NCBI GenBank assembly: GCA_947307265.1
Contig: CAMZIP010000002.1
Location: 1-41,418 of the forward strand
Source: an uncultured Bacteroidales bacterium
GTDB lineage: Bacteria; Bacteroidota; Bacteroidia; Bacteroidales; UBA932
DNA length: 41,418 bases
Direction of reading: 5' to 3'
The notes beneath the pieces are model-generated. The model was given only the letters and a program-made list of their open reading frames with translations, searched no databases and was not told the origin of the DNA. The position numbers and the translations under genes were made by a program. Within the stretch, counting starts at the first letter, position 1; each line of letters starts with the position of its first letter. Shown one piece after another: positions 233 to 26,898 of this stretch.

Positions 233-583
233 CTAGTTGTCCGTGTTGTCGGAGAGCAGGGCTGTGACTTCTTTTTTGAGTTTGGGTAGGTCGTTAATGA
301 CTATTTTCCACATAACATCATCTGTCACCGCCGCATAATCGTGTATCACACGGTTTCTGGTGGCGATGATGGCTTTGGCGTGAGTGATCGCAATCTCCGG
401 ATTATCTTTAAGGAGTTTGTTCGTGGCTTCTCCGATGATGCCGATATTCCTTTCTATGGCGCGTCGGAGCATCAAATTCTTCTGGTACTCGTCAAAACGC
501 CGGGGGACCAGTTCGAAGAACGAATAGACTTCATCGATGGCAACATCGATGTCGTATAAGTATGCCTTAAGATGCCTGTCCAT
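233..583 (-). CDS. HEPN-domain protein (HepT-like, DUF86), putative toxin
   Basis: 116 aa; RNRVIHDY matches the HEPN R-x(4-6)-H motif; overlaps an upstream MNT gene by 17 bp. Confidence 0.85.
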   Translation of the reverse strand: MDRHLKAYLYDIDVAIDEVYSFFELVPRRFDEYQKNLMLRRAIERNIGIIGEATNKLLKDNPEIAITHAKAIIATRNRVIHDYAAVTDDVMWKIVINDLPKLKKEVTALLSDNTDN

Positions 584-881
584 AGATCAGTTGTTTTGTT
601 TCATCAAGTTCTTCCTTGAAGTAGGGGTTCTTGATGGCATTATATTCCACCAAATCTACATCCCGCTTCAGAAGGTCTTCCAGGGCAAACTTAAATTCAA
701 AATAGTTTTCTCCGTAAACAAGCAGAGGCAGGGATTTGCGATCAAAGATGACGGTGAAATCTACATCGCTGTCTTTGGTGAATTTGTCCGTCAGGATGGA
801 TCCGAAGACATATAGCTGCAGAACCTTGTGCTTTTCGCACAAGGCTGCAATCTGAGCCATATTTCTTCGTATCAATCTCAT
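567..881 (-). CDS. MNT-type minimal nucleotidyltransferase, putative antitoxin
   Basis: VFGSILTDKFTKDSDVDFTVIF matches the GS-x(n)-D-x-D nucleotidyltransferase motif; paired with the HEPN ORF. Confidence 0.85.
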   Translation of the reverse strand: MRLIRRNMAQIAALCEKHKVLQLYVFGSILTDKFTKDSDVDFTVIFDRKSLPLLVYGENYFEFKFALEDLLKRDVDLVEYNAIKNPYFKEELDETKQLIYGQAS

Positions 882-918: not shown

Positions 919-1905
919 CTACTCGGGTATGGTGGCGGAGACGCGGTAGATGTTGCCGCGCTCGAGGGTGAAGTCAGAGGTGAAGACTCTGGTGCCCGGA
1001 GCGGAGTAGGCGTCGTCCACGCAGATACTGAAGTTCCATTTGGTGCCCGCTTTGATCGGCGCAAATAGATGGTTGGCAAAGTAAAGTGTCACCTGGCCGC
1101 TTTCGGGGATTATGATATCCGAATAAAGATATGCTTCATCTTTATAGCTTCCACCTGCTCCCGTGATGTGATTGATGGGGATATTTACATATTCCCAGGT
1201 TGCCGCACGGGCGAAATCTTCCGTATTATCCTCGCTGTCAAAAGCCTCGATTTTCAGTATCTGCAGCTGTTTGCCTTTGTAGGCATCAGGCACGGTGAGA
1301 TGAATCTTCAGGACGGTCATCTCGTTTTCCAGAGATGCGGTCAGAATATTGTTCTTGATATCCGAATCATCGGCAATGCCCGACATCACGCAGTAATTGC
1401 GAAGATGCGAGGCATCATCGTCAGCCACCTGTCGCAGGGGCTCCGCGTAGCCGCCGTCAAAGTAGTAGTAGCCTATGTGGGTGCGATCAAGAGTACTTAG
1501 CATATTGCCATTGTAATCCTTGTACGGCGCCGTGCTGTAAATGCCAGGTTCGACTTCCTGGAGCGCCGGGTAGAGGACCATAATGCCGGAGAAATCTTCC
1601 GGTCCCGTGAAAGTGCCGGTAAACTTGGCCGTGGTGCGCCCTGCCTCGCCGGTTGAGGTAAAGTTGTCAATGCTTGCGACTTCGTGGTCATCAACGCTGA
1701 AGGAAATGACGGAAATGGTCTCTTCGGCCTCCCAGAAGGTCTTGAGGACATTCCCGTCAGGCGTATAAGTAACCCTGGTATCATCGCCGATGCTTGCCAG
1801 CAGAGTCATCTGTACGCCCTCGTTCTCAGGTACGGTATTGTTATTCTTCTGGCAGGAAATGGCCAGAGTGGCAGCAAAAGCTGCAAAAATCATAAACTTT
1901 CTCAT
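919..1905 (-). CDS. Fimbrillin-like lipoprotein
   Basis: Start trimmed to MRKFMIFAAFAATLAISC (lipobox) preceded by AGGAGG; fimbrillin-like N-domain (DDTRVTYTPDGNVLKTFWEAEETISV). Confidence 0.7.
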   Translation of the reverse strand: MRKFMIFAAFAATLAISCQKNNNTVPENEGVQMTLLASIGDDTRVTYTPDGNVLKTFWEAEETISVISFSVDDHEVASIDNFTSTGEAGRTTAKFTGTFTGPEDFSGIMVLYPALQEVEPGIYSTAPYKDYNGNMLSTLDRTHIGYYYFDGGYAEPLRQVADDDASHLRNYCVMSGIADDSDIKNNILTASLENEMTVLKIHLTVPDAYKGKQLQILKIEAFDSEDNTEDFARAATWEYVNIPINHITGAGGSYKDEAYLYSDIIIPESGQVTLYFANHLFAPIKAGTKWNFSICVDDAYSAPGTRVFTSDFTLERGNIYRVSATIPE

Positions 1906-2057
1906 AGCTGAAATCCTCCTCCTGCATTGAATAAAAGATCCAGGTCGCCGCCGTCTCCGAAATCGGGGGCGGAAAGGCCGCTCTGCGCGATAAGCGATCC
2001 TGCGGCCAGAGATATCGCAACGCACTCAGGCGTCGAGTATGTTTCTCTTTTAGTCAT
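1902..2057 (-). CDS. Small protein (51 aa), MTKRETYSTPECVAISLAAGSLIAQSGLSAPDFGDGGDLDLLFNAGGGFQL, coupled to the downstream lipoprotein
   Basis: Hand translation; TGA overlaps the ATG of the 919-1905 lipoprotein (ATGA); shares a motif with the small ORFs at 3575 and 13188. Confidence 0.7.
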   Translation of the reverse strand: MTKRETYSTPECVAISLAAGSLIAQSGLSAPDFGDGGDLDLLFNAGGGFQL

Positions 2058-2181
2058 AAGATTATACAATATACTTATACAATATACGTTGCAAAACTAC
2101 AAAAAAACCAAAATGGTTTTTCATTATCAGAAAAAAACAGTACTTTTGAGGTTAAGAGTTTAGCTACAAATGATTAGATCT

Positions 2182-2418
2182 ATGAAGAAAGTTTTTTTGT
2201 TCGCAGTCGCTGCGACCATTATGGTCGCCGCTGTAAGTTGCAAGAGCAACGATTCCAAGAATTCTGAGGCTGAGCAGACTGCTACCGAGGTTGTTGTTAA
2301 TGATGAGGCAACCCCCGCGGATAACGCAGCTCCGGTTGACAATCCCGACGGTACAGGCCCTCTGGGCACTGAAGCTACAGGTCCCCTCGGCACCGAAGGC
2401 ACAGGCCCGCTCAACTAA
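2182..2418 (+). CDS. Small lipoprotein with TGPLGTE-type C-terminal repeats
   Basis: MKKVFLFAVAATIMVAAVSC lipoprotein signal; repetitive C-terminus; terminator follows. Confidence 0.65.
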   Translation: MKKVFLFAVAATIMVAAVSCKSNDSKNSEAEQTATEVVVNDEATPADNAAPVDNPDGTGPLGTEATGPLGTEGTGPLN

Positions 2419-3574: not shown

Positions 3575-3727
3575 ATGAAGAAAACTTACTTGACACCCGC
3601 AATGGACGAAGCAGGGATGATGGTCGGACGCATCATCTGCCAGAGCGGCAATTCGGGTAACACCGAAGATTTTGGAAAGGGAACAGGCTTCTCGTTCGAC
3701 CTGTTCGAAGGTTTCAAGCCATTCTAG
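3575..3727 (+). CDS. Small protein (50 aa), MKKTYLTPAMDEAGMMVGRIICQSGNSGNTEDFGKGTGFSFDLFEGFKPF, upstream of a BspA-like lipoprotein
   Basis: Hand translation; stop codon embedded in TAGGAGG 12 bp before the next ATG; motif shared with the ORFs at 1902-2057 and 13188. Confidence 0.75.
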   Translation: MKKTYLTPAMDEAGMMVGRIICQSGNSGNTEDFGKGTGFSFDLFEGFKPF

Positions 3728-3739
3728 GAGGGACGCATT

Positions 3740-6007
3740 ATGAAGAAGATTTTAATGGCAATCGTAGCCGTAGCGTCGGTGATGCTGACGGCTTGCTCAG
3801 TAGATCAGCCTCAGGCTCCCGTAAATGGTGGCAAGACCTACAAGGTCGTCATTGATGACGCTACCAAGACTACCCTCAATATGGACGGTGACGTCTATAA
3901 GCTCTCTTGGGTTGTCGGTGACAACATCGCAGTCACTGACGGCTCTAGCACCGCTATCTATACCGTTGCTCAGGCACAGGGCGGCGAAGCGACTATCGTC
4001 TATGCAAGTGGCGACGAGCCCACGGGTATGGCTACCGCTTACTATCCGGCATCTCTTATCGACGGTAAGCTTCCTTACGAGCAGCGCTATCTTGAGGCTC
4101 TCGGCGATGTTTTCGAGTCTCCGATGGTAGGTGTCGTAAGCGGCACTCACATTACTTTCAAGAACCTCTGCGGTGTAATTAAGTTCAGCGTCACCTCATC
4201 CCAGACCGATGTCAAGCTCACCAGCCTCCAGCTTACGGCTGACCAGCCTATGTCCGGCGCTTTCGTGGTTGACGATGCCGCTACGGGTACCTGCCACCTT
4301 ACCGGCGCTACCGGCACTACGATGGATGTTCCCAACATCGAGCTCGGTACAACTCCCGCCAATTTCTATTTCCTCGTGGCTCCCGCTACCTACACCAACC
4401 TCAAGATCACAGCCAAGGCTCTTGACGGCCGCAGCCAGGTCCTCAAGATGAAGGCAGATGCTTCTCTCACAGTTGAAAGGTCAATGGTCCACGAAGGCAG
4501 CATCGAACTCAACAACTTCATCGAGCCCGCTTCCGGTACCGCTCTCCTGCCTCCGGGCCAGGACTTCATCGTTGCTATCAAGCAGCTCGCTGATCCCGAT
4601 GCAGTTTACAACACCGACGTGTTCATCACCCGCATCTCGCTCAACGTCAACAATCCTTCCACCGAAGGTGTGATCGTTTCCGATCTCTTCTCCGAGGTTC
4701 CTGTCTACGCTGTTTACGATGATGTAACCGGTCGTCTGGACATCAACACCGCAGCAAGCGAGATCTGCACCGGTGAGGATGCGTCGTATTTGTTCTCATA
4801 TCTGTTCCAGTGCGAGGCCATCGACAACCTGAACGTACTCAATACATCTGCAGCAACGACGATGTTCTCAATGTTCAACAACTACACCGATGACAGCCTT
4901 GTCAACGAGAAGATTTGTATGACTTCACTGGATGTGAGCCACCTGAACACAGAGAACGTTACGGTCTTCACCAATATGTTCAACAACTGCCGCAAGCTCA
5001 CCTCTCTCGATCTCTCGTCGTTCAATACTTCCAACGCTACGAACATGCAGTATATGTTCTCGCGTTGCGAGAGCCTTGAATCGCTCGACCTGAGCAACTT
5101 CGACACCCAGAACGTCGTCAACTTCAACTATTTCGTCAGCCGTTGCCTTAGCCTGACTTCGCTCAACGTCTCGACGCTCAATACTTCATCCGCAACATCG
5201 ATGACTTATATGTTTAACCACTGTAGATCGCTACCTTCGGTTGATCTTTCAAGCTTCGACGTCTCTGCAGTAGAGGGTGACGGTCTGAAGTATATGTTCA
5301 ATCACTGTGAGTCGATGACATCTATTGATATTAATCATTTCAACCTCGAGAATGCTACATCGCTGACATACTTTTTAGCCTCAATGTACGCACTCGAGAG
5401 CCTTGATTTGAGCGGTCTCGATACCTACAACATTACGAGCATGAGTTATATCTTCTATGGACAGACCGGTCGTGTGGCAATCAAGCTGGGCGGCAAGTTC
5501 ACCACGGAGAATTGCACAACATTGGCATATATGTTCTATGACAATGACGCTATGGTAGAGTTCAATGCTGGTGACCTTGACATATCATCTTGCACTAAAT
5601 TAGACTATTTATTCAAAGGTTGCGATGTGCTTCAGAAGATAGATTTTGGTGACTTGGACACTTCATCTGCACCCACTCTTACCCATATGTTTGAGTGTGT
5701 TCCGAATCTGACTGAAATTCGCTTTGGAGAATACTTTGTTTACAGCAAGACTCCTGCTAATTTCTTCACTGCCTCCACTCATGCTCCTGGTGTACGCACA
5801 TCATCCAACCCCGGCGTCCTGACCATTTACTGTGACCAAGACCAAGCTGACTGGTTAGCTACTACTAATCTTCGCTTCTTGTACTGGGGTTACTATGGTG
5901 AGACCACGAGCACGGCAGTCATCGACGGTTGCCCGAGAATTACGATCAACTTCAAGGATCGTGATACGGGTGCTGATATCGGTGTTGACTGGCCGGCTCC
6001 GAAATAG
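3740..6007 (+). CDS. Surface lipoprotein: fimbrillin-like N-domain plus BspA-like DUF285 leucine-rich repeats
   Basis: Lipoprotein signal MKKILMAIVAVASVMLTAC; repeats such as LTSLDLSSFNTSNATNMQYMFSRCES. Confidence 0.85.
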   Translation: MKKILMAIVAVASVMLTACSVDQPQAPVNGGKTYKVVIDDATKTTLNMDGDVYKLSWVVGDNIAVTDGSSTAIYTVAQAQGGEATIVYASGDEPTGMATAYYPASLIDGKLPYEQRYLEALGDVFESPMVGVVSGTHITFKNLCGVIKFSVTSSQTDVKLTSLQLTADQPMSGAFVVDDAATGTCHLTGATGTTMDVPNIELGTTPANFYFLVAPATYTNLKITAKALDGRSQVLKMKADASLTVERSMVHEGSIELNNFIEPASGTALLPPGQDFIVAIKQLADPDAVYNTDVFITRISLNVNNPSTEGVIVSDLFSEVPVYAVYDDVTGRLDINTAASEICTGEDASYLFSYLFQCEAIDNLNVLNTSAATTMFSMFNNYTDDSLVNEKICMTSLDVSHLNTENVTVFTNMFNNCRKLTSLDLSSFNTSNATNMQYMFSRCESLESLDLSNFDTQNVVNFNYFVSRCLSLTSLNVSTLNTSSATSMTYMFNHCRSLPSVDLSSFDVSAVEGDGLKYMFNHCESMTSIDINHFNLENATSLTYFLASMYALESLDLSGLDTYNITSMSYIFYGQTGRVAIKLGGKFTTENCTTLAYMFYDNDAMVEFNAGDLDISSCTKLDYLFKGCDVLQKIDFGDLDTSSAPTLTHMFECVPNLTEIRFGEYFVYSKTPANFFTASTHAPGVRTSSNPGVLTIYCDQDQADWLATTNLRFLYWGYYGETTSTAVIDGCPRITINFKDRDTGADIGVDWPAPK
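4919..5720 (+). repeat. DUF285-type ~24-aa protein repeat array
   Basis: Recurrent LxSLDLSxFNTxxxTxMxYMFxxC units. Confidence 0.75.
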
Positions 6008-6145: not shown

Positions 6146-7012
6146 ATGAAGAGGCTGCTTATACTTGCGATTGCGATGATGTCCCTTGCTTCCTGCAACT
6201 GGGTAGAGGACGTCCTGCGCTATAATCCTGACCCGAAGGTCGCTTCGGTCGGCGGCAATACTTTGCGCAAAAGCGAGTTGGACCTGCTTATTCCCGAGGG
6301 AATATCACCTGAAGACAGTGCGAGGATGGCCGAAAGGTATATCCGCACCTGGGCGATGGGCTGCCTTCTCGAGTCCCGTGCAGGCGAATATCTTCCCAAA
6401 GAGGAAAAGAACGTTTCCCGTGAAGTCGAGGAGTTCCGCCGCAACCTGCTCGGATTCCGTTACGAAAAACTCTATGTCGAAAGCCGCCTGGATACGGTCG
6501 TGACGATGGAGGAGGCTTCCGCTTATTTCGAGGAGCATAAGAGCGACTATCTTCTGTCGGAGACTCTGGTCAAGGCGCGTGTCATCAGCATTTCTAAGAA
6601 ATCCCCTTACTATGATATGATCCGCTCTGAGTATTGCGTGACCGAGCCGGAGGATGTACGAATCCTCGAAGATGCCTGCGCGACCTCTGCCGATTCTTAC
6701 GAGAATTTCGGAAAACGGTGGATCAGCCTGCAGCAACTTGCTTCTACGCTCGGCATTACGCCCGAAGCCTGCCGCAAGGACATCGTATCCAAGGAATCGT
6801 GCGAGACGGACATTGACGGCCGTCATTACCTGATTTGCATTACCGACAAGGCGGAGAAAGGCACTCCAGCCCCGCTCGAATATGTCTATGAATCGGTCTC
6901 CGATATCATCATAGGCCGAAGGAAGCAGCAACTTCTTTCGACTTTGGAACAAGAGTTGTTTGATGAGGGCCTTGAAAAAGGCACCTTAAAGATTTATACG
7001 AATGAAAAATAG
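6146..7012 (+). CDS. Lipoprotein, probable SurA-like/PPIase-associated envelope protein
   Basis: Signal MKRLLILAIAMMSLASC; overlaps the SurA-like gene by 11 bp. Confidence 0.6.
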   Translation: MKRLLILAIAMMSLASCNWVEDVLRYNPDPKVASVGGNTLRKSELDLLIPEGISPEDSARMAERYIRTWAMGCLLESRAGEYLPKEEKNVSREVEEFRRNLLGFRYEKLYVESRLDTVVTMEEASAYFEEHKSDYLLSETLVKARVISISKKSPYYDMIRSEYCVTEPEDVRILEDACATSADSYENFGKRWISLQQLASTLGITPEACRKDIVSKESCETDIDGRHYLICITDKAEKGTPAPLEYVYESVSDIIIGRRKQQLLSTLEQELFDEGLEKGTLKIYTNEK

Positions 7013-8369: not shown

Positions 8370-11366
8370 ATGAAAAACACGCGAATCCTCGTTACAGTCC
8401 TTTCGGCAGCCGTTCTGCTGACCTGTACGCTTGCTTCCGGCAACCGCGGCAGGAAGGAGGATTCGTATGTTCGTCTGGTGAGTGCCGACGAGGCGCGCCA
8501 GTACGTCCAGTGGGGCACCAATTACCGCAAGGTCAAGGGTGATGCCCGTTTCTTCCACAACAATACCTATCTGCTCTGCGACTCGGCCCTATGGAACGTG
8601 GATTCGCGTTATATCGAGGCATACGGCAACGTGCGCATCATCCAGGACCGCACGCAGCTGCGCAGTGATAATCTCTACTACGACATAGACGAGAATACGG
8701 CCCGTTTCAGCGGCGGAGTGGTGGAACTCGAGGACAAGGACGGCAACCGCCTCCGCACCCGCAGGCTCGAATACAATACCCGCGACAGCGTGGCGACCTT
8801 CTTCAACGGCGCGGCGCTGATGAGCCAGGACGGCAAGGTCATCGAGAGCCTCAAGGGCAATTACGACGCTAAAGTTTCGACGTTTACCTTCGAAAAGGAA
8901 GTCGAAATATATATGGATTCCATCTTTATGAAGATGGATAACGTGGTCTATCTGGCAAATGAAGACAAGGCGGTCTTCGGCTCCAATACCCGCACCTGGC
9001 GCGGCAACGGTTTCATCGCTTCGCAGGGCGGTTCGTATTCGCGTCCGGACAGCTTGCTTTGCTATCGCGAGGATGTCTATATGTTCGATCCGGACTACGA
9101 GGCCTGGGCCGAGGAGGTGGATTACAGGATGCGCGTCGGCGAGATTGAAATGCGCGACCAGGTGAAGGTGCTCGATACCGCCGACAAGATGATTATTCTT
9201 GCAAACCACGCTTTGTATGAGCAGGATTCGTCTCGCGCAACGCTTACCGAGAACCCCGCCGTAGTCTATTTCGGTGAGAATGAGAAACACGAGGTAGATA
9301 CGGTCTATGTGGGTGCCGATACGCTGCAGTATTTCACGGTTTATAAGTTCGAATACTCACAGGAGGAGCAGAACGCCGCCGTGAAGCACCGCGAGGACCT
9401 GATGTTTGACGCTATTACGACGCTTCGCGAAAAGCAGGCCGAGGCCCGCGCGAAGAAGTACGAGGAAGATATGCGTGCCTCCGGCAAATTGCCTCCGCTG
9501 GGGTCGGCGGCCGATTCGCTGGCGAAGGCAAAGGCACTTGCAGACAGTCTTGCAGCGCTGGGAATCGTTCCAGGTGCCGACAGTACCGGAACAGTACCGG
9601 GTATGACGGACGGCGACTCTACGGGAGTTCAGCCCGGCGTGATAGCGGGAGAGCCCGCAGGAGTACAGACCGGCATTACAGTAGGTGATTCCACTAAGAC
9701 CGTAATTCCCGACCCGATCGGGAATCCCGGCGATATGCTGCGCGAAAACGGCCTGAACAGGACCGTTGAAAAGACCGTCGAAGACGACAAGACAACCGAG
9801 CCGGGCAAGACCGACGATAACGGCAATACGGACGATGCGAACAAGACCGCAACCGACAGTACGGCTACGGCAACTGTGGATTCCACGGTTCTGCGCCGTC
9901 TCCGCGCCTGGAACAATGTCAAACTCTACCGAGCTGACACGCAGGCTGCCTGCGACTCGCTCGAATTTACCGAACTCGACTCGATTGCGGTTCTTTACGG
10001 CCGCCCGATTCTCTGGAACGCAGTCCGCAACCAGCTCACCTCCGAGACGATGCACCTTCTGCTGAAGGACGGGCAGTTGCACCGCGCTTCGATGCAGACC
10101 GACGCGCGCATCACGTCCCAGCAGGACGAACAGTATTTCAACCAGATAAAGAGCACGGAGATGCTCAGTTATTTCCGTGACAACGACCTTTACCGTTTCG
10201 ACGCTCTCGGCGGCGTTACGGCTATTTTCTATATGGTTTCCCACGAACGCGTGGCAAATGTCAACCTGAAGGAGGCCAAGCAGATGACGGCGCTCATCAA
10301 GGACGGTACGGCACGCAGGCTGTTCTACCTCGAAGAGACCAAGAGCGATGCCTATCCGGTGCTTGAACTGCCCGCGGACCGCCACCGCCTCAAAGGTTTC
10401 GAGTGGCGTGCGGAAGAGCGGCCCCAGTCGCCTGAGGACATTACCTCGATGTCCCTGCCCGAGAGCGGGCGGGATTTCGGCCTCGACGCTACGAAACCCC
10501 GTTACCGCGAGACCAATCTCTACTTCGACAACTATATGAAGGACATCTGCAAGAAGCTGCTGCCTCCCGACAAGCCTCGCAATACGCATCCCAAGGTGCA
10601 GAAAACGCGTCCGGTGAATATCGGCAGCAACGACGACGATGAAGAAGTAGTTCCCGTGCCAATACGTGATGAAATAGATATGGAACCTGAAACAGTCAAT
10701 GATCAGGAAGTCCCCGAGGTCCTGAGTTACCAGACTCCGATGGGCGAATTGATCGTCAAGCCGCTCGGCCACGCATCCATAATGATGGAAGTTGCCGGAA
10801 AGCGCATTTACGTCGATCCGTACGGCGAAAAGACGGATTTCTCGTCATTCGAGCCGGCCGGTCTCGTACTGATAACCCACAGCCACAGTGACCACTACGA
10901 TCCGCAGGTGCTGGATATGCTCGTGACCGACGAAACTGTGATCGTGGCACCTCCGGATATCGAGGATGAGCGTGGCATCTGCCACCATATGGCTAACGGC
11001 GAAGGCTGGGTATATGAAGGCATCGGCATCCGTGCCGTTCCCGCATACAACGTCGAGCACGTGCGCGAAAACGGCCAGCTCTTCCATCCGGAAGGGTTCG
11101 GCAACGGTTATGTGCTGGATCTGGCGGGATTCAGAATCTATATCGCCGGCGATACGGAGCCGATTCCCGAAATGGACGAACTGACGGATGTCATCGACCT
11201 GGCATTCCTGCCCAAGAACCTGCCGTACACTATGTCTGACGAGCAGTTTGTAGAGGCGGCAAACCGCATCCGTCCGAAGTACCTCATACCGTACCATTTC
11301 TTCGAGATAGACAACGATGCCCTGCGTCGTATGATAGACCCTGAAATACACTTGATTAGAAGATAA
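8370..11366 (+). CDS. OstA/LptA-like protein fused to a C-terminal metallo-beta-lactamase-fold domain
   Basis: N-terminal signal and OstA-like beta-repeat sequence; low-complexity linker; C-terminal GHASIMMEVAGKRIYVDPY...LITHSHSDHYD...IAGDTEPIPEM. Confidence 0.8.
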   Translation: MKNTRILVTVLSAAVLLTCTLASGNRGRKEDSYVRLVSADEARQYVQWGTNYRKVKGDARFFHNNTYLLCDSALWNVDSRYIEAYGNVRIIQDRTQLRSDNLYYDIDENTARFSGGVVELEDKDGNRLRTRRLEYNTRDSVATFFNGAALMSQDGKVIESLKGNYDAKVSTFTFEKEVEIYMDSIFMKMDNVVYLANEDKAVFGSNTRTWRGNGFIASQGGSYSRPDSLLCYREDVYMFDPDYEAWAEEVDYRMRVGEIEMRDQVKVLDTADKMIILANHALYEQDSSRATLTENPAVVYFGENEKHEVDTVYVGADTLQYFTVYKFEYSQEEQNAAVKHREDLMFDAITTLREKQAEARAKKYEEDMRASGKLPPLGSAADSLAKAKALADSLAALGIVPGADSTGTVPGMTDGDSTGVQPGVIAGEPAGVQTGITVGDSTKTVIPDPIGNPGDMLRENGLNRTVEKTVEDDKTTEPGKTDDNGNTDDANKTATDSTATATVDSTVLRRLRAWNNVKLYRADTQAACDSLEFTELDSIAVLYGRPILWNAVRNQLTSETMHLLLKDGQLHRASMQTDARITSQQDEQYFNQIKSTEMLSYFRDNDLYRFDALGGVTAIFYMVSHERVANVNLKEAKQMTALIKDGTARRLFYLEETKSDAYPVLELPADRHRLKGFEWRAEERPQSPEDITSMSLPESGRDFGLDATKPRYRETNLYFDNYMKDICKKLLPPDKPRNTHPKVQKTRPVNIGSNDDDEEVVPVPIRDEIDMEPETVNDQEVPEVLSYQTPMGELIVKPLGHASIMMEVAGKRIYVDPYGEKTDFSSFEPAGLVLITHSHSDHYDPQVLDMLVTDETVIVAPPDIEDERGICHHMANGEGWVYEGIGIRAVPAYNVEHVRENGQLFHPEGFGNGYVLDLAGFRIYIAGDTEPIPEMDELTDVIDLAFLPKNLPYTMSDEQFVEAANRIRPKYLIPYHFFEIDNDALRRMIDPEIHLIRR

Positions 11367-13187: not shown

Positions 13188-13322
13188 ATGCAAGTGATGG
13201 ATGCACGTATCAGGCAGGCATACACGCCGCCGCAATGTGAAACCTTCCCGGTCCGGGAAAGAGAGACGCTGTGTACCAGCAGTTTCCCCGGTATCGGTGA
13301 TTTTGACCCCATTTTCTGGTAG
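13188..13322 (+). CDS. Small protein (44 aa), MQVMDARIRQAYTPPQCETFPVRERETLCTSSFPGIGDFDPIFW, upstream of a BspA-like lipoprotein
   Basis: Hand translation; stop embedded in TAGGAGG 12 bp before the next ATG; motif shared with the ORFs at 1902-2057 and 3575. Confidence 0.65.
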   Translation: MQVMDARIRQAYTPPQCETFPVRERETLCTSSFPGIGDFDPIFW

Positions 13323-13334
13323 GAGGAAGCAGTT

Positions 13335-16286
13335 ATGAAATACAGATTTATCATCTCAGCCATTCTGCTCTCCGCCATTATTGCGGCCTGCACGCCGAAA
13401 GAGCAGTTCCCTGTCAATACGGCATCCGGCACTTATATCCGCGTTTCGCGCGGCGAAATGACCAAAGTCTCGCTCACCCAGGAGGAGGATTATACCCTTA
13501 CCGCACGTTGGGACGAGGCCGACAGCATCGCCGTCATTTACCGCGACGCGGTCGATGCACTCATCTGCGAGAAATTCCTCATCGACCCCGCAACCATCAG
13601 CGGGGACGGTAAATGGGCGGTTTTCTCCAATATGGAAAGCGGCATCCCCGCACTCGAAGCAGAAACCACTTTCACGATTCTGTATCCTTATTCCGACGCC
13701 GTACAGAACGATAGTATTGCGCTTGATATTGCAGCGCAGACCGGCGCTCTGGCCGACCTTGGCCACTGCGACGTAATGTCATACACCGGCACCGCGGCCA
13801 GCCTGCCTACGGACATCACCCTCACGCAGCATTGCACCATCCTGCAATTCCCTGCAGGTACGATGACGGCAATGGGCGTAACCGATAACGATGCAACCGT
13901 GCAGTTGATTCACATCGACGGTGATATCGACCTTCGCACGGCATTCTTCGCTGACGGCCACGAAGCCGTCACCGGAGGAGGCACCGATACCGTCACCGTA
14001 AGCGGCGTGGCTCTGGAAGAGGGCCGTCTGGCAGATGATCTCTTCATAGCGTTCGGCCAGGATACTACGGACCGTCACCAGCAGTTCAAACTGAAGATTG
14101 TCTCGCTTGAAAAAGAGTACGACATAACGCTCCCCAAGCGTTCATTCCTCAATGGCAAACTGTATGTGGTTCAGACGGCTCTAGAGCCGATCCCCGGACC
14201 GTATATCGTGTTTGCCGATACGCTGGTAAGAGATATTTGCCTCGCTGCAGGATGGGATACCGACAATGACGGTCACATCCAGAAAGAAGAGGCAGAGGCA
14301 GTTACCGAAGTGCTGTTCAAGCAGGTGTTTATGGGCTCCAAGATCGAGAGTTTCGACGAGTTCAAGTATTTCACCGGCATTTCGACGCTTCCCGGACGTG
14401 CATTCAGCAACTGCAGCACGCTGGTCAGCATTTCCCTGCCTGAGAGCCTCGAGAAAATAGATTATCAGGCTTTTGCTTCGTGCGCTTCGCTGCAGTCCAT
14501 AATCCTGCCGCCCGCATTGGAATCCACCGGTTCGGCGGCATTTGCAGGCTGCAAATCCCTCACGAACCTGACCGTCCGCAGCAAGTCATTCACCCCCGGA
14601 GAGGCCGCATTTGCGGATTGCCCCGCGCTCGTAAACCTGAAGACCAACGATACTTCCATCAAACTGCTCGATCATTACTTCCTGATCGACAAGGGCGGCA
14701 AGGTGACGGTCAACAGTTTTATGTCCGATTCGGTCACGCTCACCATTCCCGACGGTATCACGGACATCGGGTTCGATGCCTTCAACCGTGCCAAGTCGCT
14801 CAAGAGAGTGGTGTTCCCCGCAACTATCGCATCTTTCGGCCGTTACGCGTTCAACGGCGCCAAGAGCCTTGATACCCTCAAGTTCCTGGGCCGCACCGTA
14901 CCGAAGATCGACGATACTTCATTCCCCGAGCCGCATCCTGCACTGATTTATGTGCCGTTCGGGACAAAAGAGGCATACTCTGCAGTATTCAGCTGGAGCG
15001 ATTCGCATATCCTGCATCAGGCTCTCCTGCCCGTAGGCCAGGCGTTCAATTCGGCACTCAAGAAGCAGGCTGATCCTTCGGCGCTCGCATCCACTATGGA
15101 TAAGCATATCCGTCGTATAGTGATGCGTACTGACGATTTCTCGACTGACGGAACAGTTGTTTCGCTTGACGGATCGGAGATTCCCGTATATGCTACATTC
15201 GATGCCGAGAGCGGCGTGCTGACGCTTACCACTCCAGCATCTGAAATGTGCACGGGCCAGGACGCTTCGCAGATGTTCGCATACTTCAACTGCCTGGAGG
15301 GCTTCGACGGCCTTACGGCGCTCAATACTTCCGAGGCCGTGACGATGGAGGCAATGTTCAACCAGTACGGAGCAGATTCGCTCAGCCAGGCGCTGACGGC
15401 CCTCGACCTGAGCGGCTTCAACACCGCGAAAGTGACCAACTTCCGCAGTATGTTCAATACCTGCCGCAAACTCGAGTCTCTCGACCTGAGTTCGTTCGAT
15501 ACCGGCAATGCGCTCAACTTCATAATGATGTTCGCCCGTTGCTTCGACCTCAAGTCGGTCAATCTGAGCAGTTTCAATACCTCCAAGGCCGCTTCGCTCT
15601 ACTGTATGTTCTACCAGTGCGAGAGCCTGGAGTCGGTGGACCTGAGTTCCTTCAATACCGCGAACGTGACGGACATGTCCTATATGTTCTCCTATTGCAA
15701 GAGCCTTAAGTCCCTTGACCTGAGCAACTTCAATACTGCGAAGGTGACCACGATGGACAATATGTTCGCCCACAATTCATCCCGTACCTCCCTCAAGTTG
15801 GGTGAAGGATTCAATACTGCTTCGGTTACGACTATGCGCGGTATGTTCCAGTACAACAACAAGATGGAGTCGTTCTCGCACGCATTCGACCTCTCTTCGT
15901 GCACCAATCTGGCATACTTCTTTGCCGGCTGCTCGACACTTACGAGCGTCGATCTGACAGGATTCAACGCATCTAATGTCAAGACGATGGACTGTATGCT
16001 CTATCACGTGCCGATGCTGAATGAAATCAGGATGAACGGCAATTTCCGCGCGCCGGGAGCCACTACTGTGTGGATGTTCTGCAATGCGGACGACGTTGCG
16101 CCCGTCAGGACGTCTTCGGGTGTGAGTTCGCTCATCATCCGTTGCACGCAGGAAGTCGCCGACTGGCTCGTGCAGGGCGACCTGCGCTGGATCAACAGCG
16201 GTTATCGCGAGTGCACGCCGACAACGGTAGGTTTCCGCGACCTTGTTACTGGCGCGGACCTTCCGGTTACCTGGAGACCCGATTAG
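13335..16286 (+). CDS. Surface lipoprotein: fimbrillin-like N-domain, LRR_5/BspA segment, DUF285 repeats
   Basis: Signal MKYRFIISAILLSAIIAAC; C-terminal two thirds paralogous to the 3740-6007 protein. Confidence 0.85.
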   Translation: MKYRFIISAILLSAIIAACTPKEQFPVNTASGTYIRVSRGEMTKVSLTQEEDYTLTARWDEADSIAVIYRDAVDALICEKFLIDPATISGDGKWAVFSNMESGIPALEAETTFTILYPYSDAVQNDSIALDIAAQTGALADLGHCDVMSYTGTAASLPTDITLTQHCTILQFPAGTMTAMGVTDNDATVQLIHIDGDIDLRTAFFADGHEAVTGGGTDTVTVSGVALEEGRLADDLFIAFGQDTTDRHQQFKLKIVSLEKEYDITLPKRSFLNGKLYVVQTALEPIPGPYIVFADTLVRDICLAAGWDTDNDGHIQKEEAEAVTEVLFKQVFMGSKIESFDEFKYFTGISTLPGRAFSNCSTLVSISLPESLEKIDYQAFASCASLQSIILPPALESTGSAAFAGCKSLTNLTVRSKSFTPGEAAFADCPALVNLKTNDTSIKLLDHYFLIDKGGKVTVNSFMSDSVTLTIPDGITDIGFDAFNRAKSLKRVVFPATIASFGRYAFNGAKSLDTLKFLGRTVPKIDDTSFPEPHPALIYVPFGTKEAYSAVFSWSDSHILHQALLPVGQAFNSALKKQADPSALASTMDKHIRRIVMRTDDFSTDGTVVSLDGSEIPVYATFDAESGVLTLTTPASEMCTGQDASQMFAYFNCLEGFDGLTALNTSEAVTMEAMFNQYGADSLSQALTALDLSGFNTAKVTNFRSMFNTCRKLESLDLSSFDTGNALNFIMMFARCFDLKSVNLSSFNTSKAASLYCMFYQCESLESVDLSSFNTANVTDMSYMFSYCKSLKSLDLSNFNTAKVTTMDNMFAHNSSRTSLKLGEGFNTASVTTMRGMFQYNNKMESFSHAFDLSSCTNLAYFFAGCSTLTSVDLTGFNASNVKTMDCMLYHVPMLNEIRMNGNFRAPGATTVWMFCNADDVAPVRTSSGVSSLIIRCTQEVADWLVQGDLRWINSGYRECTPTTVGFRDLVTGADLPVTWRPD
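15385..16050 (+). repeat. DUF285-type ~24-aa protein repeat array
   Basis: Recurrent LxSLDLSSFNTxxxTxMxxMFxxC units. Confidence 0.75.
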
Positions 16287-20967: not shown

Positions 20968-21804
20968 TTATCTTTCAGCCTTTAGACGTCCGGCGTCCTC
21001 CCAATCGAGGACGCTGATCGTAATTTCAGCAGGTGAGATATTGACCTGAAGGTGGATGTCCGGAAGCCAGGCCGCGTCAAAGTCGTATCCTGCACGTTCC
21101 AGATACCAGCCCATCGGGACCGTAATGCCCTCGGTGGAGCCTTTCCATCCAGTCACCTTCAGGATGATACCTGCATCCAACTGCCTCGGCATACGGAATG
21201 TCAGTTCTCCGTCGCGGGACCTTTCCTTCAGGTCGCATTCGAATGCCCCTTCGAGGGGTTCCATTTTCTCCGCGTCAAACCCCGCAACCGTTCCGACTGC
21301 CTTGAAGAAGAGGTCCTCAGGCGCTGCACCGCCGATGGCCTTTCCTTCCGTATCGGTTGTAATCACCGAGATATAGACCGTAGAGAATTGCTTATAGAGA
21401 TCCAACTCTACGCGGGCCTCCTCGCCCCGCGTATCCACTACTGCACGGCACGCGTAGAGGGAATCCGCCTGTTGTCCGGTTTCGATATAGGCCTTTCCTC
21501 CCGTTATGCGCTTCGGACCGGGCAGAAGAGTACCGATAACCTGCACTCCGCTCCGCGGAACGGTCTTTTCCAGAAGTGACGGGCAGGAAGAGAGCATATA
21601 CGTCTCTGCTGAAAGGTACTTGCCTTCACAGATGCAGTCTATGCTGAGCATTCCATTTGTCATATCGCGGAAGTTCTCGCCGCTGAGTATGTTTTGCAAA
21701 TCCACCTGCAGGATGCACGGACACTCAGTCCTGTCTTCCTTGACGGAGCAGGCCGCTGCGGCTGCGAGGAGTGCCAAAACGGGCAGAAAGGCCTTGTTTT
21801 TCAT
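20968..21804 (-). CDS. FimB/Mfa2-like fimbrial anchor lipoprotein
   Basis: Signal MKNKAFLPVLALLAAAAACSVKEDRTECPC; position after the fimbrillin-like gene. Confidence 0.65.
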   Translation of the reverse strand: MKNKAFLPVLALLAAAAACSVKEDRTECPCILQVDLQNILSGENFRDMTNGMLSIDCICEGKYLSAETYMLSSCPSLLEKTVPRSGVQVIGTLLPGPKRITGGKAYIETGQQADSLYACRAVVDTRGEEARVELDLYKQFSTVYISVITTDTEGKAIGGAAPEDLFFKAVGTVAGFDAEKMEPLEGAFECDLKERSRDGELTFRMPRQLDAGIILKVTGWKGSTEGITVPMGWYLERAGYDFDAAWLPDIHLQVNISPAEITISVLDWEDAGRLKAER

Positions 21805-21814
21805 CTTTGTATGC

Positions 21815-22861
21815 TTAAATGTTTTCTACGATATCATCGTCATTATCCCATTTCGAAATGCCGATAGTAAGTTCTGCCGAGCCCTTCAATACCGGGACGT
21901 CAGGATCATTGGAACCGACTCCGCAGATGTTCAGATAGACGTCATAAGCCTGGTTGGGCTGCAGGTCGGGCATAGTGACCGGATAGAAATACTGCTGTCC
22001 GCCGATGGTCGCAGCAAGCACGAGTCGTGTCTGGCGCGGGATATAAGTCTGCATAAAGCCTGTCGTATCGCTTTCGGTCGGGTTGGGGTAGCAGAAGAAT
22101 GTCAGGGCCTGGCGGTTGTAGTTCCTCTGGGTGAGGGTTTTGGTTCCGGTATAAGCCCCGAATGTGACCTTGGGTCCGCTTGCAAGGTAGTTTTCACCGT
22201 CGATGATATGAGTCGATTCCTGCGGAGTCTCGTCGGCGCGTCCCATCTTGTTGTACCACGATGTATCGATGGCTTGGCCTCCCAGCGTGCGTCGGCTAGA
22301 AACGTTGACAAGCATCGCATAGTCAAGCGTGATGTCGCCCAGACCGGGTGAGAGGTTATTGTAGATTTCCTTGAGCGTGATCTTGGAGCAGATGTGCGAA
22401 AGTTCAACCTCGCATTCGTTGTTGACGCCCGGCAGGATGTTGACCTCATCCGAACCGATCATACAGAAGCCGAAATAACCCATATGGTAGGAGGCAAGGT
22501 CGGCCTCATAAGCCAGAATGTCGTCAATCGTCTTTGCCATACCGATATTGGGACCGTTGGCCACAACCCAGAGCGTTCTGTGTCCGGCCTTGATGTCCAT
22601 CGTGAATTCGGAAGTAGAACTGGGATAGAAGATGCCGTATTTCTCGACGGTTCCGTCATCGAACAGGGAGATAACCTCCAGTTTCTTGATGTCGGTTTCG
22701 GTGCTCGTCTTGTTGACGCTCTTGGTTTCCAGGTTGTCGTTACGGATTTTGATCGAGACTGTCCCGTAACCTTCCGGGAGTTGGTTGATCTCAGTCTTGT
22801 TGCAGGAGCAGAGAGTCGCTGCGGCCACGGCGATAATGCCGGCAAAAAACAGTTTTTTCAT
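21815..22861 (-). CDS. FimA/Mfa1-like fimbrial subunit lipoprotein
   Basis: Signal MKKLFFAGIIAVAAATLCSC; VELSHICSKITLKEI and C-terminal YDVYLNICGVGSNDPDVPVLKGSAELTIGISKWDND, typical of P. gingivalis FimA-type proteins. Confidence 0.75.
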   Translation of the reverse strand: MKKLFFAGIIAVAAATLCSCNKTEINQLPEGYGTVSIKIRNDNLETKSVNKTSTETDIKKLEVISLFDDGTVEKYGIFYPSSTSEFTMDIKAGHRTLWVVANGPNIGMAKTIDDILAYEADLASYHMGYFGFCMIGSDEVNILPGVNNECEVELSHICSKITLKEIYNNLSPGLGDITLDYAMLVNVSSRRTLGGQAIDTSWYNKMGRADETPQESTHIIDGENYLASGPKVTFGAYTGTKTLTQRNYNRQALTFFCYPNPTESDTTGFMQTYIPRQTRLVLAATIGGQQYFYPVTMPDLQPNQAYDVYLNICGVGSNDPDVPVLKGSAELTIGISKWDNDDDIVENI

Positions 22862-22901
22862 TGATGTTTGGTATAAAAAGTTAATAATAAGGGTGTCAGG
22901 A

Positions 22902-24857
22902 TTATTGTCCGTACCGTCGTATCATCTGCGATATCTCCGGATCCAGATTACCTCGGTGGACGTATGCCGGATCTTCCCGGCAGGCTTCCCGGTAACATTC
23001 CATCGCCTTTAGTTCATCTCCGTTTCTGGAGTATAGCAGGGCGAGCATATAATTGACACGGGCGGTCCGCTCCATTGTCTCAAGCAGTTCGAGGGCCGAA
23101 CGGTCTCTTCCTGCGGCACAGTACGCCACGGCTGTATTGTAGTCGCCGTATGGTCTCAGAATTGAGGCTGCGCGCGGGTAGTCGCGTTCTTTGAGGGCCA
23201 TCAATCCGCTGCGGTACACTGTGTCCGGCACGGTGGTCTGGATTGTGTCCTGGACCATTCCCCTGCGGTGCAGGTGGAAATCGAACCGGACCGTTCGAAG
23301 GCGCGGATAGAGTTCCTGCCGGATATAGGCGTAACTGCGGTTATGCTTCATCTGAGACTCGCGCAAATCCTCGTTTGCCGCTCCGGCGCAGGCGAAATAT
23401 GCCGCCCGGTCAATCTCCGAAAGCGAGGAGTCGAAGCGGACGAGACTGTCCAGAACCGTCCAGTTTTCGGCTAAAATGCGAACGCTGAACGGAATCTCGT
23501 CCGCAGAACGACTCTTTTCGGGTATGCTGTCCGCATCTGCCAGGCCTATCATCAGTGGAGCCTCTCGGCGAATGCTGTCGGCCCACCGGCGCATCTGGCT
23601 TCCGAAGTAGCGGCAGACGCTTTCTCCGCGCTTGCGGGACAGTAGCGCATTGTAGGTGCTGGCCCCTTCCGGGGAAGCCGAGGCAGTGACCAAAATGGAG
23701 TCGATTTCCAGTTCTCGGCTCTCGAGCAACTGTCTCAGGTTTTGGCTTATGCGTATCAGTTCGACCTGATTGCCGGCTACTTCGGGGCGCAGATCGTGTC
23801 TTCCGGACTCGAATGCCAGGGTATAAGTGGCCCCGATGCATATCTGACGGCCGATTATCTGCGTCAGGTAGCGTTCCCGCTCTTCTGCCAGCGTGCTCAG
23901 CGAGGAGACGTAGAAGGTCAGCGGCTCCGCTGCAGGGATGCGGTAACATTCCTTTTCCTGCTCGTACAACGCGCCTTCGAGCGTAACGCCGACTTTGCGC
24001 AGCGTAGGACTGGTGTCAAGCGTCAGCGAATAGTCGTAACTGAAACTGTCAGTGTGCCGGATAACCGTGTCCAGCCGCAATCCCTCGCTTCGGATGGGTA
24101 CTTTCACGAGCCGGGCGAATACCTTGTCGCGGTTTTCGATCCGGTGACGGTTGTAGCGGATTATCCATTCGTTGGTATAATGCTTCAGGGCTTCTTCGCC
24201 CGTTACGCCGAAGGCGGATGCAAACTTTTCGTCGGAGACGTATGTAGAATCGTTGCGGAGTGCGTACAGTTCGGGGATATTGCGGCTGATAAAGCGGTCA
24301 AGTTGGTGCCGGAGCACGAAGTAGAGCGAGTCCTGGGCAAGTGAGCGCAGGTAGCGTTCGTACTGCTGGTAGCCGCGCAACTGGGTCTTGCGGTATTCCT
24401 GTCCCGTGATGTAAATCTCTTCGAGTGGAACGTTCCCGTCCGGAAGAACCAATACCGGCGAGAAACGGAGTTGCCAGCGGCTGTCCAGCAGGTCTGAGGG
24501 CACATTTATACGGAATGCGATATTGATCTTGCCGAAACGCTCTGCCACGTGCCGGAACCGGGCCGTAACGGTCGCGGCCTGGATGACGTCGCTTGCGATC
24601 ATCTCTCCGCTGGCTTCGTCCCGCACGGCATTCATTACGAGCACGCTTCCTCCGTCGAAATCCCGTGTCACGAGCGTGTCGCTGTCGGTCGCAATCGTCT
24701 CTGCCGCTATTTCGGCAGGGTCGCGGCGGGCCGGTGCGGCTGTCTCGGGCAGTACCAGTTCTGCGGTGGTCTGTTTCTGCGTCAACTGCGTCAGCCGGGA
24801 AGGCGTGCAGGTGGCTGCGAGAATCGCCAGAAGCGTTATGATAATCAGTTTGCGCAT
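22902..24857 (-). CDS. DUF3868-type OmpA-like outer membrane protein of a fimbrial locus
   Basis: VTASASPEGASTYNALLSRKRGESVCRYF OmpA/DUF3868 motif, TPR-like C-terminus; adjacent DUF3575 gene. Confidence 0.7.
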   Translation of the reverse strand: MRKLIIITLLAILAATCTPSRLTQLTQKQTTAELVLPETAAPARRDPAEIAAETIATDSDTLVTRDFDGGSVLVMNAVRDEASGEMIASDVIQAATVTARFRHVAERFGKINIAFRINVPSDLLDSRWQLRFSPVLVLPDGNVPLEEIYITGQEYRKTQLRGYQQYERYLRSLAQDSLYFVLRHQLDRFISRNIPELYALRNDSTYVSDEKFASAFGVTGEEALKHYTNEWIIRYNRHRIENRDKVFARLVKVPIRSEGLRLDTVIRHTDSFSYDYSLTLDTSPTLRKVGVTLEGALYEQEKECYRIPAAEPLTFYVSSLSTLAEERERYLTQIIGRQICIGATYTLAFESGRHDLRPEVAGNQVELIRISQNLRQLLESRELEIDSILVTASASPEGASTYNALLSRKRGESVCRYFGSQMRRWADSIRREAPLMIGLADADSIPEKSRSADEIPFSVRILAENWTVLDSLVRFDSSLSEIDRAAYFACAGAANEDLRESQMKHNRSYAYIRQELYPRLRTVRFDFHLHRRGMVQDTIQTTVPDTVYRSGLMALKERDYPRAASILRPYGDYNTAVAYCAAGRDRSALELLETMERTARVNYMLALLYSRNGDELKAMECYREACREDPAYVHRGNLDPEISQMIRRYGQ

Positions 24858-24860
24858 TGT

Positions 24861-25409
24861 TTAGAAGATGTAAACGATTGATGCCTGGATTTCGTGAGGC
24901 TCGATAAATCCGCCTATTCCGCGTTCTATGACGCGTCCGCAATGCGGGCAGGAATACTTGGTAAAACTCCGTCCTCCGCCCCACAGTCCTGCTCCCAGGT
25001 CAAGGTTGAAATGCTTGCCCAGCATCCAGGCATACCCGGCCGAGAGGCCCGCTCCGTATGCGTCGCCTTCTTCCGCCCACGTCATACGGGCGGTGTGTCG
25101 GCTGTATTCTTCGTAGCGGGCCTTCAGGCCGAGCCACCATCCTGAATGTGCATTCCAGGCCCAGTAACGGACTCCGGCAGATGCTCCGCGGCACTTATTG
25201 TAACGCGGATCCTCCTGTGCGGTGTTCTCCCACGGGTTGTAACGGCCGGAGGCATTTAGTGAGAAATGCCGGTCGAAGGCCCAGGAGATTTCCGTGTTGA
25301 CTGTCCCTGTTGCACAGTCCAGGACATTGGTGGATACCGAAAGTGTCTGTGAAGTAGCCGGGATTACTCCCAGGCATATAATGGCTATTGTTAAAGAGAG
25401 TGTTTTCAT
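24861..25409 (-). CDS. DUF3575-like outer membrane protein
   Basis: LSVSTNVLDCATGTVNTEISWAFDRHFSLNASGRYNPW; beta-rich, ends YIF; locus context. Confidence 0.7.
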   Translation of the reverse strand: MKTLSLTIAIICLGVIPATSQTLSVSTNVLDCATGTVNTEISWAFDRHFSLNASGRYNPWENTAQEDPRYNKCRGASAGVRYWAWNAHSGWWLGLKARYEEYSRHTARMTWAEEGDAYGAGLSAGYAWMLGKHFNLDLGAGLWGGGRSFTKYSCPHCGRVIERGIGGFIEPHEIQASIVYIF

Positions 25410-25414
25410 TATTG

Positions 25415-26647
25415 TTACGGTCTTATATACAGGAAACAGGTATCGCTTTTCGCGAAATCGGCAGTGCTTATGACTACGCAGGTTTCGCAGTGGTCGGGAT
25501 CATATCCGTCACAGTAGATTATGAGGTTGTCCGCCATCAGCATAAACTCCAGTTGACAGTTGTCGAAGTCCGGGCCCTTGCTTACCAGGTAGTCGACATC
25601 ACGCGGGAATACTTGCCAGAGGAGTGTTACAGAACAGAATTTGCTGAGATGAAACTCGCGGTTACTGAACCTCACGGACCTTTTATCGTTGACATATCCT
25701 CGAGATACCTTCCAGGATTCGGCCAGCCTGGCCGCCGAATCGCTCAGTTTGAGCGTCAACTGGTGCGCGGTGCCGCGTTCGATATTGAAATCAGTACAGT
25801 TGTCGCGGCCGAGGAAGCACCTGTATCTCAGGTCATAAATGTCGCACCAGTCTGAGCTGTAGTCGCCGGTTACTTCCAGATAGGTGCAGAGTTCTCCGCC
25901 ACCGATGTTCTCCGGGACTTTGTTCCAGGGATTGCGGTTGTATGGCAGGAGCCGGCCCTGAAGGTTTTCCGGTACTATGCAGGAAACGGTGTCTCCCCGG
26001 TTGAGGAGTGCGGCTGCACCGGGATATTCGTAACCTATGGACGATACGCTGTCGGCTTTCCAACTGCCGAAAGCCGGGAGCCGTAGGGCGGCCTGTCGCA
26101 GAGTTACTCCTGTGACGGAAAAACTGCCTTTGAGCCCGGTGCGGTTGATGTTAAGGCGATAGTTGGAGAACATCGGGTTCATAGTGAGGGATGTCAGTTT
26201 AGTTCCCGGAATAATCTCCGCGTAGCCGCTCTGGGGATAGCGGTCAACGGATACGGCTCCTTCCGGCCATCGGTATGAAGAATTGAATGCTTCGTCAAGT
26301 GTTTGCGGCACCGGGATCGAATCGCCCCAGTCTGCAAAAGCCACGATGGTATAGGGCTGCCGCCGGTCCAGCCGGTCAAACGTATAATTGGCCGAACTGC
26401 CGCTGCCTTCGGCCACCAGATGCCCATAGCGGTTATATGCCATAATCCTGAAAGGACTTTTGAAAATGGGTTTAATAATTGCTTTTGTGGGCGTCGTGCC
26501 GTCATCTTCGCGCATAGGCGAGGTCTGCATCATTACAGTAAGGCTGTCGTCGCCCGCGCCCTGGCTTCCCATATCGGCGCAGCCGGTCGGCAATGTCAGG
26601 GTTGTGAGGAGTGCGGCACTCATCGCCGCCGTTTGGATTCGTTTCAT
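25415..26647 (-). CDS. Uncharacterised lipoprotein of a fimbrial locus
   Basis: Start trimmed to MKRIQTAAMSAALLTTLTLPTGC; first gene of the 5-gene minus-strand operon. Confidence 0.6.
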   Translation of the reverse strand: MKRIQTAAMSAALLTTLTLPTGCADMGSQGAGDDSLTVMMQTSPMREDDGTTPTKAIIKPIFKSPFRIMAYNRYGHLVAEGSGSSANYTFDRLDRRQPYTIVAFADWGDSIPVPQTLDEAFNSSYRWPEGAVSVDRYPQSGYAEIIPGTKLTSLTMNPMFSNYRLNINRTGLKGSFSVTGVTLRQAALRLPAFGSWKADSVSSIGYEYPGAAALLNRGDTVSCIVPENLQGRLLPYNRNPWNKVPENIGGGELCTYLEVTGDYSSDWCDIYDLRYRCFLGRDNCTDFNIERGTAHQLTLKLSDSAARLAESWKVSRGYVNDKRSVRFSNREFHLSKFCSVTLLWQVFPRDVDYLVSKGPDFDNCQLEFMLMADNLIIYCDGYDPDHCETCVVISTADFAKSDTCFLYIRP

Positions 26648-26898
26648 CGTCTGAGGCGTTTGGGACGGCAAAAGTAATGCGGCCCAAAAGGGTTTGTAAC
26701 GCCCCGAAAAAAGCGGTTTGAAGATTTGCCGATTAACGAGAAAAACTGCGCGAAAGCGGTTTTAAAGGCATTTTTTGAAGCGGAAAAACGGAACTCGCGA
26801 AGCGAAAAGCGAAAGAGTCAAAAATCCGGCATTATCCGATTCCGCAAATAATCCAAAACATTGAATAATTGCCGTTAAACTGCCTTGTCTGCCGAAAT

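Follow-up and report, generated by a model that had tools for sequence, protein, structure and literature searches.

Short YxxP proteins encoded beside fimbrillin-like lipoproteins of Bacteroidales: candidate precursor peptides of an LPP-like RiPP system

The 51-aa protein encoded at positions 1902-2057 of the minus strand of the window (the whole stretch of 41,418 nucleotides, contig C2 of G000, a 1.44-Mb MAG of 178 contigs) is a member of a large family of small proteins under purifying selection, whose genes are paired with lipoprotein genes and co-occur with a conserved cassette encoding a PqqD/RRE protein, an HprK-like kinase, a peptidase and an ABC exporter. We propose, with a probability of about three in four, that these small ORFs encode RiPP-type precursor peptides of a system in Bacteroidota that resembles the linear polyphosphorylated peptide (LPP) pathway. 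Precursor peptides were one of three options offered by the first-pass annotation of the window, next to leader/coupling peptides and cytosolic partners of the lipoproteins, and it is this option that is favoured by cassette co-occurrence, linkage and the YxxP motif. To our knowledge, short Y-x-x-P proteins are a common sight in gut Bacteroidota and have no assigned function; the RRE/kinase/peptidase/exporter cassette provides this family with a concrete, testable biochemical hypothesis. If the prediction is true, the LPP-type pathway extends to another phylum, many dispersed precursors share a single cassette, and RiPP chemistry is linked to fimbrillin-like adhesins of gut Bacteroidales. Searches of the open-licence literature returned no paper on the small-protein family or on the cassette in Bacteroidota.

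The small-protein family

The features of the window on which the analysis is based are as follows.

1902..2057 (-): small protein 1, precursor-like, 51 aa, the main finding
2028..2039 (-): YxxP leader motif of small protein 1, codons Y7-S-T-P10, whose Y and P do not vary in the alignments of the family
1980..1988 (-): codons A24-Q25-S26 of small protein 1, S26 being the conserved Ser (Tyr+19)
1915..1923 (-): AGGAGGAGG, Shine-Dalgarno-like, within the last codons of small protein 1
919..1905 (-): partner lipoprotein 1, 328 aa, fimbrillin-like, with a low-confidence model that resembles Bacteroidales fimbrillins
3575..3727 (+): small protein 2, precursor-like, 50 aa, with a class a tail and Y5, P8 and S24
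3740..6007 (+): partner lipoprotein 2, 755 aa, with DUF285 repeats (Pfam)
13188..13322 (+): small protein 3, precursor-like, 44 aa, or 41 aa if the ATG at 13197 is the start
13335..16286 (+): partner lipoprotein 3, 983 aa, with a weak Mfa_like_1 match, LRR_5 and DUF285 (Pfam)

Translation of the 51-aa ORF reproduces the residues quoted in the first-pass annotation, and the two similar ORFs reported there at 3575 and 13188 are present, each 5' of a lipoprotein gene. None of the three small proteins has a match in Pfam or NCBIfam scans, and a simple regular expression run over the window was uninformative. Their likeness is real: a 14-member profile recovers the family in 33 of the 40 genus genomes, with E-values down to 1e-18 and a maximum of 28 matches in one genome. 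The ORF had been described as the founder of a local three-member family; a wider profile (A3, 33 sequences, five of them taken from RRE loci) finds at least 14 members in the window's own MAG, and the proposed profile search of relatives recovered a dispersed, multicopy family across the genus and the GTDB family. One class a member gave no plasmid match.

The Y and P of the YxxP motif are invariant in the small-protein alignments A1 and A3. The residue that follows P-x is mostly I, V, L, A or F, with C, T or M in several members (C in small protein 1), and a conserved Ser lies at Tyr+17 to +22 in 70 of 70 small proteins, mostly at +19 or +20. This residue (S26 in small protein 1) is our proposed modification site, but it may also be that cleavage follows it, as residue -1 of a site of the small-x-small type. 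The tails fall into four classes: (a) NEDFGKGTGFSFDLFEGVKPF, (b) LPDVGDGGDAW, (c) NEDFGxKxGTYDFLKP and (d) GDFNF or GDFTL; W or F stands at the C-terminal end in 52 of 58 distinct sequences. The small ORFs are under purifying selection and conserved at the amino-acid level: the dN/dS analysis of orthologues, suggested earlier, gave a pooled ratio of 0.22 over six pairs between G000 and G032 (Fisher p=4e-8), and in class a tails the synonymous positions vary while the amino acids are kept.

Several other loci of the window deserve mention. A HepT-like ribonuclease adjoining a Polbeta/MNT nucleotidyltransferase (233-881, minus strand) constitutes a HepT/MntA-type toxin-antitoxin pair, and a small lipoprotein-like ORF at 2170-2418 (plus strand) carries C-terminal TGPLGTE-type repeats and has no Pfam match. 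A 998-aa ORF at 8370-11366 (plus strand), in which OstA/LptA-like domains are joined to a beta-lactamase-superfamily hydrolase domain, is either a fusion or a gene-boundary oddity. The region 20968-26671 (minus strand) is a fimbrial-type cluster with a FimA-family protein, DUF3575, DUF4906 and TPR proteins.

Pairing with lipoproteins and translational coupling

Among sampled genus loci, the next gene downstream on the same strand encodes a lipoprotein for 54 of the 60 small ORFs with a callable downstream gene, vs 26 of 145 background genes (18%) taken from other genus loci (p=9e-23). At L082 one further small ORF precedes a lipoprotein which the regular expression missed. The class d exceptions have a lipoprotein upstream and a secreted protein downstream. 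The earlier statements that the small proteins have no signal peptides and are tied to fimbrillin-like lipoproteins are both supported. Among individual loci, L052 (2505-3072) contains two small ORFs head to head on opposite strands, each followed by its own lipoprotein, and L068 contains two class d small ORFs (2510-2650 and 6526-6666, plus strand), with a lipoprotein before them and secreted proteins after them; one of these secreted proteins we take to resemble a C10-type peptidase.

The arrangement around small protein 1 is compatible with a different role for the ORF, namely that of a translated leader (uORF), whose termination raises or regulates translation of the lipoprotein and whose sequence is of minor importance or acts by stalling. 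Inspection of the window confirmed that the TGA of small protein 1 (1904-1902) overlaps the ATG of lipoprotein 1 (1905-1903) in an ATGA, and that AGGAGGAGG lies inside the last codons of the ORF. In class a the stop-GGAGG-ATG spacing is fixed at about 13 nt, an SD-like GGAGG stands before 22 of 52 paired vs 6 of 39 unpaired lipoproteins, and Bacteroidetes are among the groups in which short leader genes have been suggested to act by reinitiation (PMC4833913). Translational coupling, as suggested by the first-pass annotation, is therefore plausible for the window pairs and class a, in which alone the coupling geometry is present. It does not extend to the whole family: class b members lie 22-175 nt upstream of the lipoprotein and have no SD, and class d members are on its 3' side. 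Because the SD geometry is absent from class b, coupling cannot be what holds the family together; besides, a leader role would leave unexplained both the conservation of amino acids under synonymous change and the co-occurrence and linkage with the RRE cassette described below. As a general explanation a leader or coupling peptide fails on these points, and we regard it as improbable.

The lipoproteins themselves are diverse. Their C-terminal parts comprise DUF285, LRR, Lcl_C/Fib_succ-type, PPC and other domains. Partner lipoprotein 1 has no Pfam match, and its AlphaFold model, of low confidence (pLDDT 59), finds mostly Bacteroidales fimbrillins and putative adhesins as best structural matches. 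The N-terminal 250 residues are similar within tail classes (median 142-208 bits) and dissimilar between them (0-35 bits), whereas the C-termini of class b lipoproteins are largely unrelated (median 19 bits). Single-linkage clustering on the C-termini failed to separate classes a and b, which were separated by pairwise N-terminal scores. That the class of the small-protein core tracks the N-terminal domain of the lipoprotein fits a peptide acting on that domain, but the correspondence may also stem from plain joint duplication of adjacent DNA.

The pairing, being one to one, would also suit the last of the options listed earlier: the small proteins would then act on the lipoproteins as cytosolic partners or chaperones, and their co-occurrence with the RRE cassette would be due to shared ancestry only. 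This would turn the YxxP motif, the spacing of the Ser and the embedding of small ORFs in the cassette into coincidences; the option is not supported, and we consider it very improbable indeed.

The RRE/kinase/peptidase/exporter cassette

Since YxxP is a leader motif bound by RREs, a search was made for PqqD/RRE proteins and their neighbours. As the small proteins contain no conserved stretch of 7-10 alignment columns, the RRE was used as the query for the contig scan. PqqD/RRE (PF05402) is present in 12 of 12 genus genomes tested, and the order HprK-S26-PqqD(-NTase)-ABC is kept in the genus, the family and wider Bacteroidales. In the window's MAG the cassette lies on another contig (G000:C7), out of sight of the first-pass annotation, and no precursor is linked to it.

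Within 6 kb of the RRE and on the same strand, the peptidase is found in 13 of 15 genus, 18 of 20 family and 71 of 80 wider Bacteroidales loci, the HprK-like kinase in 13 of 15, 19 of 20 and 45 of 80, and the ABC exporter in 8 of 15, 19 of 20 and 45 of 80, respectively; since the local profiles stem from the genus and the scanned loci, the counts for distant kinases and exporters are probably too low. A regular expression identified the S26-type peptidase in 78 of 93 loci. The labels HprK-like and S26-like derive from weak profile matches: the kinase is a P-loop protein with weak HprK-related NCBIfam matches, while the peptidase has an invariant Ser-His-Asp triad (S35, H79 and D94 in alignment A4) and a confident model (pLDDT 88.9) with structural matches to the LexA/UmuD/signal-peptidase fold. 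The exporter is an MsbA-like ABC transporter with no C39 peptidase domain. Directly behind the HprK-like kinase there are genes that we take to be PiT-type phosphate transporter- and PhoU-like (L092 10848-12565, L093 10435-12152 and L096 10740-12431, all on the minus strand), a suggestive neighbourhood given the proposed phosphorylation.

The comparison of the RRE profile with solved structures identified TfuB1 as the best match (E 2.9e-5), followed by LppB (9x8z, E 0.1), with weak matches to TbiB1 and PbaB1; these four are RREs that bind leaders. The two LppB residues shown to fix the YxxP motif, N33 and D70 (PMC13381572), align with N in 96% and D in 84% of 109 RREs.

The small ORFs and the cassette occur together. 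In 120 family genomes the RRE was detected in 49 of 53 with small ORFs vs 23 of the 67 that lack them (p=3e-11 by Fisher's test, phylogeny ignored and profile A3 including the five sequences from RRE loci); the four genomes with small ORFs and no detected RRE (G013, G213, G221 and G232) reflect either MAG incompleteness or a real absence. Co-occurrence was evaluated at the family level because the small-ORF profile reaches other families poorly and the order level is too weak: over the order, the profile detects members in only 9 of 158 genomes, vs 102 of 158 for PqqD, and the RREs there have either other substrates or precursors diverged beyond detection.

Ten of the 120 genomes have a small ORF at most 8 kb from the RRE on the same strand, against a rough Poisson expectation of 0.75 calculated from an assumed genome size and copy number (p about 8e-9). 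In about ten family genomes a small ORF lies inside the cassette or adjoins it, and in most cases a fimbrillin-like lipoprotein comes next. The ABC exporter, the small ORF and the lipoprotein follow one another in L187, L188 and L189, and the peptidase, the small ORF and the lipoprotein do so in L186; a small ORF and a lipoprotein stand ahead of the cassette in L184, L190, L191 and L192, and in L194 the small ORF directly precedes the kinase, with no lipoprotein between them.

From this combination of genes we infer a pathway in which the YxxP leader at the N-terminus of the small protein would be captured by the discrete PqqD/RRE protein, whose gene lies at another genomic site, the HprK-like kinase co-encoded with the RRE would phosphorylate the conserved Ser, and a cytosolic S24/S26-type peptidase would remove the leader. 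The MsbA-like exporter would then secrete a linear core of about 20-28 aa, often rich in Gly and Asp and usually ending in W or F. One or two maturation cassettes per genome would serve precursors that have been duplicated to many sites, each of them coupled to a single surface lipoprotein of the fimbrillin-like kind. The product would most likely serve the N-terminal domain of its lipoprotein as a dedicated cofactor or ligand. Our confidence in this function is much lower than in the precursor role. The broader idea that the modified peptides are parts or ligands of adhesins and not diffusible antibiotics or signals, with each peptide matured by one shared cassette and then acting on the fimbrillin-like domain at the N-terminus of the neighbouring lipoprotein, is offered tentatively and is rather doubtful.

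Or perhaps the small proteins could be precursors of the same cassette undergoing another chemistry, e.g. the transfer of a nucleotidyl or glycosyl group, or cyclisation by an enzyme not linked to the cassette? NTP_transf_5 (PF14907), a strong match, is indeed found beside the RRE in some loci (4 of 15 genus and 8 of 20 family loci), with unlinked copies in G000 and G032, and the final products of LPP pathways are likewise not established. However, the HprK-like kinase and the peptidase are the most regular neighbours of the RRE in genus and family, and no lasso B2 peptidase scores above the cut-off in 12 genus genomes, so this alternative seems unlikely to us.

Comparison with known systems

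The partner lipoproteins share fimbrillin-like N-terminal domains with the FimA/Mfa-type fimbrillins of Bacteroidales, for which literature searches on fimbrillin systems found no comparable small precursor gene. Short precursors and an ABC exporter are also features of the Bacteroidales double-glycine RiPPs with PCAT exporters (PMC10352776), but the small proteins have no GG leader motif and no NCBIfam match, and their exporter has no C39 domain; membership in that group was ruled out on the lack of NCBIfam matches for the three window ORFs. Lasso peptides (fusilassin/TfuB1, paeninodin) resemble the present system in that a YxxP/WxxP leader is recognised by a PqqD-like B1 protein, and paeninodin clusters have HprK and an NTP transferase in common with the cassette. 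Lasso membership was considered for the YxxP motif and dropped, as the B2 peptidase (PF13471) is not above the cut-off in any of 12 genus genomes; among the RRE neighbours there is no Asn-synthetase-like cyclase.

The closest parallel is provided by LPP, the linear polyphosphorylated peptide RiPP of Paenibacillus and other Bacillota described in 2026, with a core cluster set of LppA, K, B, S, D and N (PMC13381572). In both lasso and LPP pathways, RREs hold on to YxxP in the leader; the LppA core begins AQSNWK and is phosphorylated at S3 by LppK, and LppS removes the leader with the help of the RRE (PMC13381572). LPP is stated to be restricted to Bacillota, and "Bacteroid" does not occur in the paper (PMC13381572). 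The small proteins carry the YxxP leader mostly in the form that defines LPP precursors, [Y/W]xxPx[L/V/I/F/A], and their Ser, mostly at Tyr+19/+20, lies one or two residues beyond the Tyr+18 of LppA; small protein 1 even has AQS, as at the start of the LppA core. Further similarities are the discrete RRE with LppB-type Asn and Asp, the SpI-like S-H-D peptidase next to it (by catalytic residues and fold), the HprK-like kinase and MsbA-like exporter, and a core set that, like that of LPP, contains no lasso cyclase or B2; the NTP transferase, linked to the RRE in only some loci, may be another. The differences concern the host, here Bacteroidota, the large number of precursors, most of which are not linked to the cassette, the pairing of each with a fimbrillin-like lipoprotein, the residue at -1 (T in LppA, hydrophobic here) and the core, which is 45 aa in LppA and shorter here. 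Judged from gene anatomy, the prediction that this putative pathway works like LPP is well supported.
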